From Myxococcaceae bacterium (GTDB lineage Bacteria; Myxococcota; Myxococcia; Myxococcales; Myxococcaceae), in assembly GCA_016793095.1 (NCBI GenBank), contig JAEUJQ010000050.1, positions 310,001-374,000 of the forward strand: a DNA stretch of 64,000 nt, written 5' to 3'. The notes beneath the pieces are model-generated. The model was given only the letters and a program-made list of their open reading frames with translations. It was not told the origin of the DNA and did no database searches. Within the stretch, counting starts at the first letter, position 1. The number at the start of each line of letters is the position of its first letter. A program made the translations under genes and the position numbers. Shown here piece by piece: positions 2,141 through 8,548 of this stretch.

Positions 2141-3799
2141 TCACTCCAACAGGTGAATGGTGCTGATGTTGGGGGTCGGACGGTCGATGAGGAACGTTGG
2201 CGTCGTCAGCGCCTGCGCGAACACCGAGACGCTGTTGCCGTCGAGGACATAGAGCGTTCCGTCCGCGCCCAGAATCGACCGCCTCATGGTCGCGCCGAGC
2301 GTGGGCCCCGACACGATGGAGGCAGGCGTCGCTCCCATCATCAGCGACGCCGCGTTCGCGTACAGGAAGACGGCGCCGGTCGTGGAGTTGATCTGCACGG
2401 TGACGACGAGCGTCCCGTGGAAGACGCCGTGGTGGCGAATGCTCGGGCTCGTCCCCGCTCCGCCGTCCACCGTGACCGAGAAGTCCACCGCCCGCGGCGC
2501 CGACAGCATCGACACCTGGTTCCACACGCCGATGCTGGACGTGAAGAACGAGCTGAAGAGCCGGTCTCCGCCGATGACGAGCGGCCCGGCGTTGGGCATC
2601 GTCGCGAGGACGAAGTCGTGCATGCCCGCGTCACCCGTGCGGGTGTCGGCGGAGTTCCACACGAGCAGACCCGCGCCGCTCACCTGGCCACCGAAGAGCC
2701 GGCGGCTGGTCGAGTCGAAGGCGAAGCCGAAGATCTGCTCGAAGGGGTGGGTGAACTCGGCCGTCGCGCCGGTGGTCGCGGTCGCCGCGGCCGCGCTCGT
2801 GAGCAGCTTCACGCGGCCCGGCGAGTTGTTGTTGAACCAGAGGTTGCCGAGCGCGTCGAGCCGGGTCTCGGTGATGCCAGAGAGAGGCAGCACGTTGCCT
2901 GGAATCGCGACCGCCGGGGTCGAGGTCGCCGTCACGCTCGCGGGCCCAGCGAAACGCTTCAGCGTCCGCGCGGTCGAGGAGCTGCCGTTCGCGATGACGT
3001 AGAGGTTCGCCGAATCACCTGCCAACGCGACGGGCGCGTCAGTGCCCGGGTCCACCCCACCAGTGGGGATGAGGCCGGCGTCAGGCAGGTTCGCCCGGTC
3101 GTAGAAGACCACCGCCGGCGTCGGCGCCGTGATGGCGATGAAGAGCCGAGGCAGCACACCCGCGGAGCCACCTGCGCTCCCGCCCGCGGAGCCACCTGCG
3201 CTCCCGCCCGCGGAGCCGCCTGCGCTGCCGCCCGCGGAGCCACCTGCGCTCCCGCCCGCGGAGCCACCTGCGCTGCCGCCTGCGGAGCCACCTGCGCTGC
3301 CGCCCGCGGAGCCACCTGCGCTCCCGCCTGCGGAGCCACCTGCGCTGCCGCCCGCGGAGCCAGCTGCGCTCCCGCCTGCGGAGCCACCTGCGCTCCCGCC
3401 CGCGGAGCCACCTGCGCTGCCGCCCGCGGAGCCACCTGCACTCCCGCCTGCGGAGCCACCAGCGCTGCCGCCTGCGGAGCCACCTGCGCTCCCGCCCGCG
3501 GAGCCACCAGCGCTGCCGCCTGCGGAGCCACCAGCACTCCCGCCTGCGGAGCCACCTGCACTCCCGCCCGCGGAGCCACCAGCAGCACTGCCGCCTGCAG
3601 AGCCACCTGCACTGCCGCCCGCGGAGCCACCAGCACTGCCGCCCGCGGAGCCACCTGCACTCCCGCCCGCGGAGCCACCTGCGCGTCCACCGGCCGAGCC
3701 TCCTCCGCCTCCATCCGGGCCTGCAGGCATCTCTCCACAGTTGCAGCCCATGGCTGCGGCCAGCGTCACGGCGATGAGCGCCTTCTGTACGAGCGTCAC
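2141..3799 (-). CDS. Lipoprotein with a long Gly-Gly-Ser-Ala linker and a propeller-like domain
   Basis: About 552 residues from a GTG at 3799 preceded by GAGGGGGG on the coding strand. The N-terminus VTLVQKALIAVTLAAAMGC reads as a lipoprotein signal with Cys as the acylated residue. Residues of roughly 35-215 are about 45 near-perfect copies of GGSA, then a C-terminal half of about 335 residues begins LPRLFIAITAPTPAVVFYDR and has repeated beta-strand units (ALAGDSANLYVIANG, RLDALGNLWFNNN, LFGGQVSGAGLLVWN) like NHL/YncE-type propellers. Such lipoproteins are typical of myxobacteria; the linker probably spaces the domain from the membrane. The binding partner is unknown. Confidence 0.75.
   Translation of the reverse strand: MTLVQKALIAVTLAAAMGCNCGEMPAGPDGGGGGSAGGRAGGSAGGSAGGSAGGSAGGSAGGSAGGSAGGSAAGGSAGGSAGGSAGGSAGGSAGGSAGGSAGGSAGGSAGGSAGGSAGGSAGGSAGGSAGGSAGGSAGGSAGGSAAGSAGGSAGGSAGGSAGGSAGGSAGGSAGGSAGGSAGGSAGGSAGGSAGGSAGGSAGGSAGGSAGGSAGVLPRLFIAITAPTPAVVFYDRANLPDAGLIPTGGVDPGTDAPVALAGDSANLYVIANGSSSTARTLKRFAGPASVTATSTPAVAIPGNVLPLSGITETRLDALGNLWFNNNSPGRVKLLTSAAAATATTGATAEFTHPFEQIFGFAFDSTSRRLFGGQVSGAGLLVWNSADTRTGDAGMHDFVLATMPNAGPLVIGGDRLFSSFFTSSIGVWNQVSMLSAPRAVDFSVTVDGGAGTSPSIRHHGVFHGTLVVTVQINSTTGAVFLYANAASLMMGATPASIVSGPTLGATMRRSILGADGTLYVLDGNSVSVFAQALTTPTFLIDRPTPNISTIHLLE
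3158..3690. repeat. 24-bp tandem repeat coding for the GGSA linker
   Basis: About 22 imperfect copies of a 24-bp unit lie inside the lipoprotein gene. Each encodes two GGSA tetrapeptides with different synonymous codons for the two halves. Copies differ mostly by C/T and C/G changes that leave the protein unchanged, so protein sequence is kept while DNA varies. Length variation between strains would change linker length in steps of four or eight residues without a frameshift. Confidence 0.9.
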
Positions 3800-3935
3800 G
3801 GTGTTCCCCCCTCGAAGAAGTCCTGCGACCAACACGAGCCGTGGAGTCTGCCAGAAACGACGCCGGGGCCTCGCGCTCTTTCGGGCTCCAGCGCTTGACG
3901 GTCCCGACCCGACCCCATACGAGCGTCGTCGCTGT

Positions 3936-4150
3936 CAGGTGCCCACGTCGGGCATCATGAAAGGGAAGCCGGTGAGAATCCGGCGCGGTCGCGCCACTGT
4001 GACCGGGAACGCCCCGCATCGATGATGGGGCACCTGTCGTCTCGAGGTCGGGGAGCAGTCCACCCCACGTCACGCCGCGAAGTCGCGGGGGAAGACGGGA
4101 GACGGCGGTTGGCATCCCGGCGAGCCAGGAGACCTGCCTGACGGTGCGGA
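3936..4150 (+). promoter_or_regulatory. Cobalamin riboswitch (B12 element)
   Basis: The conserved cobalamin-riboswitch core is visible: AAAGGGAAGCCGGTGAGAAT at about 3959, then GCGCCACTGT and CGGGAAC, and the B12 box GAGCCAGGAGACCTGCC at 4122-4138. It lies on the plus strand 60-270 nt upstream of the BtuB-like receptor gene, the usual position for repressing uptake when cobalamin is plentiful. The outer boundaries are approximate. It could control the overlapping beta-propeller lipoprotein gene as well, since both appear to share one message. Confidence 0.93.
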
Positions 4151-4207
4151 GACCTCCGGGTCCCCGCGTGGCCTTCTCTCTTCGCGGAAGAGAGCAGAGG
4201 GCGTCGA

Positions 4208-6148
4208 ATGCGGCTGGCCGTCTTCGCCATGGTGGGCTTGAGCGCGACGCACGCGCTCGCCGACGCCACCGACGCCGGCCTCATTCCGCTGCCTCCAGTG
4301 GTGGTGCCGCTCCCGCCCGCCGCTGCGCCCTCCGCGTCCTCGCCAACGCAGCGCGACCCGTCGGCCGTCACCACCATCATCGAGACGAAGTCGCGCACGG
4401 CCGAGGCGAAGGACGCCACCGACCTCGTGGCCGCCACGCCCGGCGCCGTCGTCGTCGACCAGGGCGGCGCGGGCCAACGGAAGACGCTCTCGCTGCGCGG
4501 GGCGGCGCCCAACGGCGTGCTGGTGCTGCTCGACGGCGTGCCGCTCAACGGGCCGGGCAACGCGGTAGACCTCTCACGCGTGCCGCTCGCGATGCTGGAG
4601 CGCGTCGAGGTGATGCGCGGCGCCGGCAGCCGCTACGGCCCTGGCGCGATGGGGGGAGTCGTCAACCTGGTGTCGAAGGCGCCTGGTGGCGCGCGCGTCT
4701 TCGCCGACGTCTCGCAGGGCAGCTTCTGGACGACGATGGCGTCGGCGGGCGGCGCGACGTCACTGCTGGGCGGCGAAGGCCTGGCGCTCGTGCACGGCCT
4801 GCGCAGCGACGGCGACTTCACCTACCGCTGGGACGACAAGCCTGCGCTCGCGGGCAACGAATGGGCGCCGGCGGTGCGGCGGAACAACCAGGCGCTGGGC
4901 GGCGGAGGGCTCGCTCGCTGGCGGCGCGAGCTCGGCGGCGGCTCCCGCCTCGACGTCCTGGGCGAGGGCCTCTACGAGACGCGCGGCCTCGCCGGCCCGG
5001 TGCAGAACCCGACGGCCGACGCGAGCCAGGCGACGGGCCGGGGAACGGTCTCGGCGCGGCTCACCTCCGCCTTCGCCAACGGCGGCGAGCTGCAGGTGCT
5101 GGGCTGGGGGCGGCTCGACTCGACGGTGCTCCGCGGGAGCGCGTTCGGCGGCGCGGCGGGCTACGCCCAGCTCGAGTCGTCCTTCGGCGCCGAGGCCGTG
5201 TATTCCCAGCGAGCCCTCGGCCGGCATCGCTTCACGGGCCTGCTGGGCGCGGGAGCCGACCTGCTGCGCGAGCCCTCGGGACGCAACCCGGCATGGGGCC
5301 GCGCGAGCGCGATGGTGGGCGACGAGGTGTCCTTCTTCGACGGCCGGCTGGTGGTGGACGCCACGGCGCGGGTGGACGTGGCCGGGCGCTTCGTCGTCCT
5401 GTCTCCCAAGGCGAGCGCGACGGTGTTCCTCCCGAAGGGCTTCGAGCTGCGCGCCTCGGGCGGACAGGCGTCGCGGCCTCCAGGCTTCCAGGAGCTGTAC
5501 GTCATGCAGGGCACCCTGCTGCCCAACCCCGACCTCGCGCCTGAGCGCGGGCTCCTCGCCGACGTGAGCGCGGCGTGGAGGCACGAGAAGGCGACGGTGC
5601 AGGTGACGGGCTTCTCGGGCCTCTACGAGAACCTCATCGCCTACGAGTACTACCCGCCGGTGCTGGCGAAGCCGTACAACTTCGCCGCGGCGCTGGCGGC
5701 AGGGCTCGAGGTCGAAGGCGCGGTGGCTCCGGCGGCGTGGCTCGAGGCGCAGGCGAGCTACACGTTCCTCTCCACGCAGAACCTGAAGGACGACCCCCGC
5801 TACTACCTCAAGGCCCTGCCCTACCGTCCGCGCCACCGCGTGACGGGGCGCCTCGTCGCGGGCCCCGACTTCGTGAAGGCGCGCGCCGAGGTGTTGTTCC
5901 AATCCGAGCAGTTCATCAACCGCACCGAAGGCGTCTCGCTGCCGGCGCGGGCGTTCGTGAGTCTGGGCATCGCCGCCACGCCGTGGAAGAACCCACGCGT
6001 GACGGTGGCCTTCGACGTGAAGAACGTACTCGACGTGCAGACCCAGGACCTCGACGGCTACCCGCTGCCTCCGCGCGCGGCGTTCCTGTCGGTGGCGCTC
6101 GCCTGGGAGCCCGTCGCGACGACCAGCAGAGACCAGGGAGCGAACTGA
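4208..6148 (+). CDS. btuB: TonB-dependent outer-membrane cobalamin receptor (BtuB-type)
   Basis: 646 residues with a signal peptide (MRLAVFAMVGLSATHALADA). A TonB-dependent plug follows at about residues 55-160 (TPGAVVVDQGGAGQRKTLSLRG, VLVLLDGVPLNGPG, LERVEVMRGAGSRYGPGAMGGVVNLV), then a barrel ending FLSVALAWEP. Residues 630-646 trail past the last strand. No clear TonB box was found before the plug. The cobalamin assignment comes from the riboswitch directly upstream; by sequence alone only the receptor class is certain. A GAGGG lies about 10 nt before the ATG. The stop codon overlaps the ATG of the next gene (TGATG). Confidence 0.9.
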   Translation: MRLAVFAMVGLSATHALADATDAGLIPLPPVVVPLPPAAAPSASSPTQRDPSAVTTIIETKSRTAEAKDATDLVAATPGAVVVDQGGAGQRKTLSLRGAAPNGVLVLLDGVPLNGPGNAVDLSRVPLAMLERVEVMRGAGSRYGPGAMGGVVNLVSKAPGGARVFADVSQGSFWTTMASAGGATSLLGGEGLALVHGLRSDGDFTYRWDDKPALAGNEWAPAVRRNNQALGGGGLARWRRELGGGSRLDVLGEGLYETRGLAGPVQNPTADASQATGRGTVSARLTSAFANGGELQVLGWGRLDSTVLRGSAFGGAAGYAQLESSFGAEAVYSQRALGRHRFTGLLGAGADLLREPSGRNPAWGRASAMVGDEVSFFDGRLVVDATARVDVAGRFVVLSPKASATVFLPKGFELRASGGQASRPPGFQELYVMQGTLLPNPDLAPERGLLADVSAAWRHEKATVQVTGFSGLYENLIAYEYYPPVLAKPYNFAAALAAGLEVEGAVAPAAWLEAQASYTFLSTQNLKDDPRYYLKALPYRPRHRVTGRLVAGPDFVKARAEVLFQSEQFINRTEGVSLPARAFVSLGIAATPWKNPRVTVAFDVKNVLDVQTQDLDGYPLPPRAAFLSVALAWEPVATTSRDQGAN

Positions 6149-7746
6149 TGTTCTCGAAGCAAGTGACGATGAGGGCTCTGGTGGCGGCGTACGCCGTCGC
6201 GTTCTGCTCGGCGTGTCCCGACACCGGCATCGTCTGCCGCATGGGCACCAACCGCTGCGGCGCTGGCTGCGCCGACTACACCTCGGACCGGCGCAACTGC
6301 GGCGGCTGTGGCCAGGCGTGCGCGGCCGGGCAGGTGTGCGCCGCGAGCGTGTGCGTCTGTCAGGCCGGCACCGAGCTGTGCGACGGCCGCTGCGTGGCGA
6401 CGGCGAGCGACCCGAACGCGTGTGGCGGCTGCGGCCGCGCGTGCGCCAGCGGGCAGGTCTGCGAGCTGGGCCAGTGCAAGGCCTCGTGCACCCTCGGCGT
6501 CAGCACGCGCTGCGGCGCGTCCTGCGTGGACACCACGTCGGACCCCTCGAACTGCGGCGGCTGCGCGCGCGCCTGTCAGGGCGGGCAGCGCTGCGTCGCC
6601 GGCGGCTGCACGTCGGACCTCGTCGTGGCGTGCTTCTCGTCGGGCCAGGTGGCGGGCCTCTCGGCAGCGACGCTCCAGCGCACCCCGCTGGGAGACCTGG
6701 GGACGGCGCCGGCCGCGCTGGCCACCTCGAGCGGGGTGTTGCTCGCTGCCGACGGCTTCGACCGCAAGCTGAACCAGGCCGACCTCCCGCCGAGCGAGGC
6801 GGCGTACCGCGAGCTGCCGGGGCGCTCCGTCACCACCGGGGCGGTGCCCAACCAGGTGCTCGTCGATGGCGAGTGGGTCTACGTCGTCAACGCTCAGAGC
6901 GGCACGCTGCAGGTGCTGAGGCGCGGCGCGACCGACGGTGACGCGGGCCTTCCGCTCACCACCGTGCAGGAGCTCGTCTTCGGCCCCAACACCTTCCCGC
7001 AAGGGGCGGCGAAGGTGGGCAGCTCGCTCTGGGTGCCACTGTACGGCGGCTATGGCGCGGCGACGGTGGACGCCGGGCAGCGCGTCATCGAGGTGAGCGT
7101 GGCAGACCCGGCCAACCCGCGCGCCGTCGGTGAGGTGTCGCTCTCATCGCTGGACTTGAAGCCCTTCGACGGCGGCACGCCGGTGCCCCGGCCCTTCGCC
7201 GTCACGGCGCACCACGGGGCCGTCTACGTCGCCCTCAACAACTTCAACGCCGACTGCAACCCGCTGTGTGTCCCCGGCGGACCCGGGCTGCTGGCGAAGG
7301 TGGACCCGGCCTCGAAGACCGCGTCCGTCATCGACCTCGGCGCCGACGCGTGCCTCAACCCGCAGTGGGTCGCGCCGCTGGGTGACGGGCTGGCGGTGTC
7401 GTGCGGCGGTCAGGCGACGTACACCGGCCAGGACTTCGTGCTGACGAGCCTCGAGCGCGCGGGCGTGGTGGTGCTCGACGCGAACGACCGTCGTGTCGCG
7501 ACGTGGGCGCCGGCAGCTCCGACGTGCGGTGATGCGGGGGTCTGTCCGCTCTTCCTGCCTGGCCGCTTCGGCGTGAAGGGCTCGTCCCTCTTCGTTGGCG
7601 ACCAGAACGCGGGGCGGCTCGTGGTGCTGGACTACGCCGACGGCGGCCTCGTGGAGCGCCGCGGCCCGGCCCGCAACGACGGCGTGCAAGCCTGTCCCGT
7701 CAGCTCGTCGGGCATCGCCAACATCGCGGATGTGCTGGCGCCGTGA
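6148..7746 (+). CDS. Cys-rich repeat and beta-propeller surface lipoprotein linked to BtuB
   Basis: 532 residues. The start is the ATG overlapping the btuB stop by 1 nt. The N-terminus ends in a lipobox-like VAFCSAC. Residues of about 35-150 hold three Cys-rich repeats of the form NCGGCGxxC...G..C, common in myxobacterial surface proteins. From about residue 155 a YncE-like beta-propeller follows, with strands such as WVYVVNAQSGTLQVL, GAVYVALNNFN and FVGDQNAGRLVVLDYADGG. The tight coupling to btuB under a B12 riboswitch suggests a cell-surface partner that binds cobalamin for the receptor, comparable to the propeller lipoprotein BtuG of Bacteroides. That function is inference; homology to BtuG has not been tested. 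Confidence 0.75.
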   Translation: MFSKQVTMRALVAAYAVAFCSACPDTGIVCRMGTNRCGAGCADYTSDRRNCGGCGQACAAGQVCAASVCVCQAGTELCDGRCVATASDPNACGGCGRACASGQVCELGQCKASCTLGVSTRCGASCVDTTSDPSNCGGCARACQGGQRCVAGGCTSDLVVACFSSGQVAGLSAATLQRTPLGDLGTAPAALATSSGVLLAADGFDRKLNQADLPPSEAAYRELPGRSVTTGAVPNQVLVDGEWVYVVNAQSGTLQVLRRGATDGDAGLPLTTVQELVFGPNTFPQGAAKVGSSLWVPLYGGYGAATVDAGQRVIEVSVADPANPRAVGEVSLSSLDLKPFDGGTPVPRPFAVTAHHGAVYVALNNFNADCNPLCVPGGPGLLAKVDPASKTASVIDLGADACLNPQWVAPLGDGLAVSCGGQATYTGQDFVLTSLERAGVVVLDANDRRVATWAPAAPTCGDAGVCPLFLPGRFGVKGSSLFVGDQNAGRLVVLDYADGGLVERRGPARNDGVQACPVSSSGIANIADVLAP

Positions 7747-7810: not shown

Positions 7811-8548
7811 ATGAACCGCCTTGGACTCGCACTGGGATTGATGCCGGTCACCGCCGCGACGACGGCCGAGGCGGGGCCACCGGCGAAGGCGACGGTGCAG
7901 GCGCCCCGGCAGTGGCGTGCGGCCTTCGAGCGCATCGGCGTCACGGACGAGCGGGTCCTCGCCGCGGTGGAGGCGGTCCCACGCGAGGCGTTCCTCGAAC
8001 CCGACATGCGCCCGTTCGCCTGGGAGGACCGGCCGCTGTCCATCGGCTACGGCCAGACGACGAGCCAGCCCTCGCTCATCGCGTTCACGCTCCAGGCGGC
8101 ACGGCCCGGGCCGAAGTGCCGGGCGCTCGAGGTGGGGACGGGCTGTGGCTACCAGACGGCGCTGCTCGCGAAGCTGTGCCCCGAGGTCTACAGCATCGAC
8201 ATCGTCGCGCCGTTGGCCGAGCGGGCGAAGAGGTCGCTCGCGAAGCTGGGCTTCACCAACGCGTCGGTGAAGGCTGGCGATGGGTACCTCGGCTGGCCCG
8301 AGGCGGCGCCGTTCGACGTCATCATCGTCGCGGCCGGCGCGGCGCGGGTGCCCCAGCCGCTCATCGACCAGCTCGCCGTGGGCGGACGCCTCATCATCCC
8401 GGTCGGAGAGACGTCGGCCGAGCTGTCGCTCGACGTGCTGACGAAGCAGAAGGACGGCACGGTGAGACGGGAGCAGTTGCTGCCGGTGCGCTTCGTCCCG
8501 CTGACGGGGAGTCACGCCGACCGCGACCGCGCCGACGCGGGCTGGTGA
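7811..8548 (+). CDS. pcm: Protein-L-isoaspartate O-methyltransferase, exported form
   Basis: 245 residues from the ATG at 7811, with AGGAGG about 9 nt upstream. Methyltransferase signatures include LSIGYGQTTSQPSLIAFTLQ, ALEVGTGCGYQTALLAKL (SAM-binding glycine motif), a strand ending VYSIDI and DVIIVAAGAARVPQPLIDQLAVGGRLIIPVG, which are the standard PCMT motifs in order. The enzyme methylates L-isoaspartyl residues so that damaged proteins can be repaired. Unlike the cytosolic enzyme, it starts MNRLGLALGLMPVTAATTAEA, which looks like a signal peptide, so it may act in the periplasm. It appears monocistronic. Confidence 0.88.
   Translation: MNRLGLALGLMPVTAATTAEAGPPAKATVQAPRQWRAAFERIGVTDERVLAAVEAVPREAFLEPDMRPFAWEDRPLSIGYGQTTSQPSLIAFTLQAARPGPKCRALEVGTGCGYQTALLAKLCPEVYSIDIVAPLAERAKRSLAKLGFTNASVKAGDGYLGWPEAAPFDVIIVAAGAARVPQPLIDQLAVGGRLIIPVGETSAELSLDVLTKQKDGTVRREQLLPVRFVPLTGSHADRDRADAGW

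Follow-up and report, generated by a model that had tools for sequence, protein, structure and literature searches.

Does a myxobacterial transporter gene under a cobalamin riboswitch, overlapped by a gene for a Cys-rich propeller lipoprotein, represent a vitamin B12 (cobalamin) uptake system of the kind that BtuB and BtuG form in Bacteroides? The question is raised by a 64-kb stretch of DNA from a Myxococcaceae bacterium (contig JAEUJQ010000050.1, positions 310,001 to 374,000), the whole of which was analyzed and is termed the window; coordinates below refer to it unless a locus is named. BtuG has been reported to be exclusive to Bacteroidetes (Wexler et al. 2018, PMC6143338) and has been attributed to crowding in the gut and competition with the host there (PMC6143338), and structures of the BtuBG lid have been solved (Abellon-Ruiz et al. 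2023, PMC10404256). In the literature searched, bioRxiv preprints and most subscription papers being outside its reach, nothing describes a BtuG-like partner from Myxococcota. The original prediction, made from the DNA letters, had proposed a possible BtuG analogue at this locus, and the propeller fold, together with the conservation of the riboswitch and btuB, now supports it, with B12 binding as a prediction. The myxobacterial pair is real and conserved, and within the reach of the literature search it is undescribed. We consider it likely that the two genes form a B12 uptake operon in which a BtuG-like propeller, a diverged relative of BtuG, captures B12 for BtuB.

The layout of the locus agrees with what had been claimed for it. 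A cobalamin riboswitch aptamer (RF00174) lies at 3920..4155 on the forward strand and matches the full model (1-189) with 66.5 bits in cmscan, against a gathering (GA) cut-off of 31.5 bits; it is the sole Rfam match in the window. The aptamer is located upstream of btuB on the same strand, 52 nt from its ATG start codon. The btuB gene (4208..6148, +) encodes a TonB-dependent outer-membrane transporter of 646 aa, as judged from Pfam, NCBIfam and an AlphaFold2 (AF2) model. The Cys-rich propeller lipoprotein gene (6148..7746, +; 532 aa), assigned from its open reading frame (ORF), Pfam/NCBIfam matches and AF2 fold, starts with an ATG whose first base, at 6148, is also the last base of the btuB TGA stop (6146-6148), so that the overlap is exactly 1 nt. 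Between the aptamer and the btuB start, RNAfold predicts a hairpin at 4171..4202 (+) as a candidate expression platform, the region 4140-4225 folding with -44.2 kcal/mol (z -2.4 versus shuffles). Because this hairpin lacks a U-run and base-pairs with the purine-rich ribosome-binding region, riboswitch control of btuB is more likely to act at the level of translation.

The expectation that pair and riboswitch are conserved together across Myxococcota was borne out throughout the phylum. Full-length orthologues of the propeller protein are found across the taxonomic family to which the window's genome belongs. In 39 of 40 extended loci, the gene immediately upstream of the orthologous propeller gene, on the same strand, is a btuB homologue; the distance from btuB stop to propeller start ranges from -29 to +127 nt, with an overlap in 25 of these 39. 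Of the 36 loci, the window counted, whose upstream sequence was long enough to be testable, 32 have a riboswitch above the gathering cut-off ahead of btuB, and the spacing has a median of 58 nt where the riboswitch directly precedes btuB. Remote loci from other families show the same arrangement, with btuB adjacent in 19 of 20 (the exception is truncated by a contig end) and a riboswitch in 16 of 17 testable cases, and all 11 named loci of Myxococcus, Pyxidicoccus and Corallococcus carry the riboswitch, M. xanthus AM003 among them (M. xanthus orthologue of the propeller gene, L093:5518-7131). M. xanthus, a carrier of the pair, is amenable to genetic manipulation. With the propeller profile, 148 of 195 Myxococcota genomes gave a match at E 1e-6. 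Because btuB is adjacent in 39/40 loci, the riboswitch is present in 32/36 and the propeller in 148/195 genomes, the btuB-propeller pairing is no accident.

The genomes without a profile match extend this picture. Among 20 that we examined, 14 have a BtuB-like gene, and in 9 of these the adjoining ORF is still matched by the propeller hidden Markov model (HMM). In the remaining 5, a further lipoprotein-like ORF stands beside the BtuB-like gene; two of these ORFs align with a group of stalkless propellers (A7, see below) and one matches DUF5074 (PF16819), the Pfam family of BtuG, at E 1.4e-4. Some outer Myxococcota families are without the Cys-rich stalk; the propeller therefore appears, from these sequences, to be the constant part and the stalk an addition. 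Searching outer loci for riboswitches by a B12-box pattern gave a result that was suggestive only.

Three Myxococcus species (M. eversor, M. llanfairpwll... and M. qinghaiensis) carry two btuB-propeller pairs each (L084/L085, L096/L087 and L108/L089), and the paralogues of both genes split into the same two clades in the two gene trees, with support of 0.999-1.0. Pairwise distances of btuB and propeller correlate with r = 0.97 over 37 pairs, a mirror-tree value that is inflated by the shared descent of linked genes. The trees indicate that the paralogues kept their partners, shared descent explaining part of the correlation. As a separate observation, a record titled Comamonas sp. KCTC 72670 (BNCN01000012.1; L109) holds a Myxococcus-like btuB-propeller locus that clusters within Myxococcus in the tree, and it is probably a mislabelled or contaminated assembly.

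The propeller protein consists of three parts: a signal peptide (residues 1-22; 6148..6213, +) with a predicted lipidation Cys at residue 23, a Cys-rich stalk of three ~42-aa repeats (residues 23-155; 6214..6612, +; Stig1 PF04885 and NF041328) and a seven-bladed propeller domain (residues 156-532; 6613..7743, +; AF2 with DSSP, and VIA-align). The stalk repeats have CGGC cores at residues 51, 92 and 136. Pfam Stig1 passes its cut-off on three stretches of the stalk, and NF041328 (MXAN_6577-like Cys-rich protein) passes with 117.7 versus 100 bits, aligning residues 13-155 to positions 4-145 of a 145-position profile; no paper on MXAN_6577 was found in the literature searched. The AF2 confidence (predicted local distance difference test, pLDDT) is about 90 in the stalk from residue 31 onward. 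The original prediction of a lipoprotein with three Cys-rich repeats thus holds for the repeats and needs a qualification for the lipobox, which is degenerate in the window copy (F-C-S-A-C23) and counts as a point against the proposed reading. A canonical lipobox, mostly with a Pro after it, is found in 63 of 72 relatives, and C23 is more than 90% conserved. These sequences identify the stalked-propeller family as a predicted lipoprotein family; lipidation of the window copy itself is predicted and slightly uncertain.

No Pfam family matched residues 156-532. The AF2 model of the protein (pLDDT 89.1; predicted template modelling score, pTM, 0.87) nonetheless shows seven blades by DSSP, the C-terminal strand 526-530 closing blade 1, and structural matches to propellers agree with the earlier assignment as a beta-propeller. 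In VIA-align comparisons with the Protein Data Bank (PDB), 1l0q reached Z 33.3 and lactonase-like proteins Z 30-32, and BtuG1-3 gave 30.4 (BtuG2, 8bn0), 29.6 (3dsm), 29.5 (8okv), 28.5 (8blw_B) and 27.6 (8p97_B). With values so nearly tied, the model has a BtuG-type fold and does not single out BtuG.

Is the resemblance to BtuG then one of descent? Several observations weigh against this. By VIA-align, the fold of the stalked family is no nearer to BtuG than to lactonase-like and YVTN propellers. DUF5074 is matched neither by the window protein nor at its locus in its own genome, and the best value for members of the stalked family is E 0.12. Phmmer of the propeller protein against the PDB gave no match, and the profile of the stalked family gave generic repeat matches, with BtuG at E 0.04-0.26 behind NHL proteins. 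A second group of propellers, A9, is closer to the stalked family than A7 is (hhalign E 4.8e-25) and has the generic 1l0q as its top PDB match (4e-13), followed by BtuG1 (3e-9). Moreover, the BtuG profile matches described below span about 90 residues. The main rival to common ancestry is a convergent history, in which a propeller was drawn separately from the YVTN/lactonase pool, was paired with btuB and acquired a BtuG-like function. The structural Z values, with BtuG tied with or under 1l0q and lactonase-like proteins, the missing DUF5074 match and the ranking of A9 are in line with such a history, as are the invariant C162, C402, C419 and C516, which constitute a family-specific signature.

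This convergent explanation, which stood as the first reading, was weakened by a look at the propellers that are linked to btuB in outer families. In outer Myxococcota, stalkless propeller lipoproteins, often beginning with VVTTDYxTGS, are encoded beside divergent BtuB-like transporters (loci L211, L212, L213, L216, L217, L218, L220 and L221). These propellers were chosen by their position beside btuB alone, and seven stalkless sequences make up group A7. Against the PDB, the A7 profile has BtuG as its nine best sequences, with E from 2.7e-6 to 2.7e-4 (8okv 2.7e-6, 8p97 3.1e-6, 8bmy 1.6e-4 and 3dsm 2.7e-4), with YncE (5.6e-4) and lactonase-like proteins (0.07) ranking behind. By hhalign, A7 also shows a relationship with the stalked family (probability 98, E 1.4e-13), and one btuB-linked propeller of another Myxococcota family (L221:3551-4786) gives 21.5 bits with DUF5074, under the cut-off of 27.2. 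Since stalkless btuB-linked propellers match both the stalked family and BtuG by profile, we favor, on balance, the stalked propeller as a far-diverged relative of BtuG by common ancestry, the stalk having probably been gained within Myxococcota; separate recruitment is plausible and, in our judgment, the less probable course. The original wording, an independent or divergent version of BtuG, thus leans to the divergent side through the stalkless propellers, although the window protein itself lacks a DUF5074 match; the proposed comparison by profile and structure placed BtuG among the close folds but no nearer than other YVTN propellers. Divergence and convergence lead to the same functional prediction.

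The btuB product has a Plug domain (PF07715, 73.8 bits) and a TonB_dep_Rec_b-barrel domain (PF00593, 70.7 bits), and TIGR01779 (TonB-B12) is its top-scoring NCBIfam TonB model. Because the TIGR01779 score of 103.6 bits is far under the equivalog cut-off of 599.7, sequence alone does not fix the identity as BtuB. The same low score would be compatible with a transporter that is not specific for B12, taking another cobamide, a corrinoid precursor or a cobalt chelate, with the propeller binding that ligand. We regard this as improbable: the solved folds nearest to the AF2 model (pLDDT 84, from an alignment of 27 rows) belong to cobalamin BtuBs from two phyla (E. coli and B. theta), which occupy Foldseek ranks 1-6 and VIA ranks 1-11, ahead of other receptors, and the gene adjoins a cobalamin riboswitch across the phylum. 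The closest among them are BtuB3G3, E. coli BtuB and BtuB1G1.

We mapped conservation onto the propeller blades with 70 sequences (effective number 28), and of the 26 loop positions scoring at least 0.7, 25 are on one face (D-A and B-C loops) and 1 on the opposite face. All 72 members have an acidic propeller (median net charge -10), whose four invariant cysteines, C162, C402, C419 and C516, may form two disulfides. The BtuG2 propeller has been reported to be acidic (PMC6143338, PMC10404256), and BtuG2 binds B12 in the central cavity of its negatively charged, BtuB-facing side (PMC10404256). One-face conservation and acidity fit a candidate BtuG-like binding face, with the counterargument that both are common among propellers. 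A propeller that partners BtuB without binding B12, either as a structural lid or as a surface enzyme acting on cobamides, is suggested by the 6-phosphogluconolactonase-like enzymes among the close folds. However, the invariant residues are mostly Gly, Pro, Cys and Asn, among which no catalytic set was recognized, and the sole precedent of a btuB-linked propeller lipoprotein is a binder, making this alternative unlikely.

The operation of a B12-capturing pair can be outlined from these features. At low intracellular cobalamin, the riboswitch would presumably permit the joint translation of btuB and the overlapping lipoprotein gene, the hairpin at 4171-4202 probably being what hides the ribosome-binding site. 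BtuB would act as a TonB-driven outer-membrane channel, and the disulfide-stiffened Cys-rich stalk would bear the propeller of the putative surface lipoprotein. Positioned over the mouth of BtuB, the propeller would use its conserved face to catch B12 or other cobamides and would then hand them on, as does the BtuG lid in Bacteroides. We infer this capture role from fold, linkage, regulation and conservation.

Could further surface proteins take part? The only other cobalamin riboswitch in the genome (G000:C87:19279-19448:-) precedes two lipoprotein genes that overlap by 4 nt, encoding proteins of 424 aa (L167 12835-14109) and 237 aa (L167 12125-12838), for which no Pfam family and no PDB relative were found. 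The 424-aa protein was considered as a relative of the propeller and dropped, hhalign giving no such relationship and its propeller-like look being unproven; the 237-aa protein matches F5/8 type C marginally and gives a weak hint of LIC_13355 lipoprotein. In genomes of Myxococcus, Corallococcus, Pyxidicoccus and the Archangium type, the 424/237 pair follows immediately after the btuB-propeller pair, with a riboswitch of its own, and several Corallococcus have it in two copies. In one genome (G024; L037/L082, G024:C77), a single riboswitch is followed by a row of 424-like, 237-like, btuB and propeller genes, and in outer families a 237-like gene is found close to btuB (L211, L212, L217 and L218). 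Both families are thus tied to B12 uptake by riboswitch and btuB neighborhood. Because they are riboswitch-driven and stand beside the btuB-propeller pair, the myxobacterial surface B12 system is suggested to have several lipoproteins. A surface apparatus of several lipoproteins for cobamide capture in Myxococcota, combining a Cys-stalked BtuG-like lid with these two riboswitch-driven families without known relative, at times within a single operon of four genes, is a tentative proposal for which we would not quite give even chances.

Two features flank the pair in the window. A gene for protein-L-isoaspartate O-methyltransferase (PCMT; 7811-8548) follows on the same strand, 64 nt past the propeller gene. 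It was considered as an operon member and dropped, since in Myxococcus and Corallococcus the lipoprotein pair of the second riboswitch occupies that place, and it is probably unrelated to the btuB-propeller pair. On the other side, a divergent ORF (2141-3835, -) without a Pfam family contains a 24-bp tandem repeat of 21.8 copies (3159-3684), which would read as Gly/Ser/Ala-rich repeats.

Among known systems, YVTN/6-phosphogluconolactonase-like propellers (1l0q, 3fgb, 1ri6 and the YncE structure 3vgz) have the common fold, with Z 26.8-33.3, but are unlinked to B12 transport and have no Cys-rich stalk. MXAN_6577-like/STIG1 repeats (NF041328, PF04885), which resemble residues 13-155 of the window protein, occur in many other myxobacterial proteins, whereas here they form one protein with a propeller and are linked to btuB. 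E. coli BtuB (PDB 2guf, 1nqh) shares the plug, the barrel and the upstream riboswitch and is the best VIA match of the BtuB model (Z 38.8; root-mean-square deviation 2.5 over 521 residues), but has 18% identity to the window BtuB. To our knowledge, it is without a comparable lipoprotein partner.

In Bacteroides, BtuH and BtuJ (DUF4465) are further B12-binding, riboswitch-controlled surface lipoproteins adjoining btuB (PMC8941943, PMC13398666). The 424-aa and 237-aa families resemble them in riboswitch control and position but have no Pfam or PDB match to them; control by riboswitches marks both families, which are unannotated, as candidates for B12 binding. If they and the propeller each bind B12, they would provide a parallel to BtuG, BtuH and BtuJ in a second phylum, with two new B12-binding families. 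The closest comparison is BtuB-BtuG of Bacteroides thetaiotaomicron (BtuG1-3; PDB 8blw, 8bmx, 8p97, 3dsm; PF16819). BtuG has a short linker where the myxobacterial protein has a three-repeat Cys-rich stalk, and the stalked family has four invariant propeller cysteines, no PF16819 match and a cobalamin binding that is predicted. Both systems are cobalamin-riboswitch operons of btuB and a lipoprotein, predicted in the myxobacterial case, with a seven-bladed, acidic propeller fold (PMC6143338, PMC10404256). If the myxobacterial propeller acts as proposed, propeller-assisted B12 capture would be wider and older than thought and no adaptation to the gut, many Myxococcota being soil bacteria.

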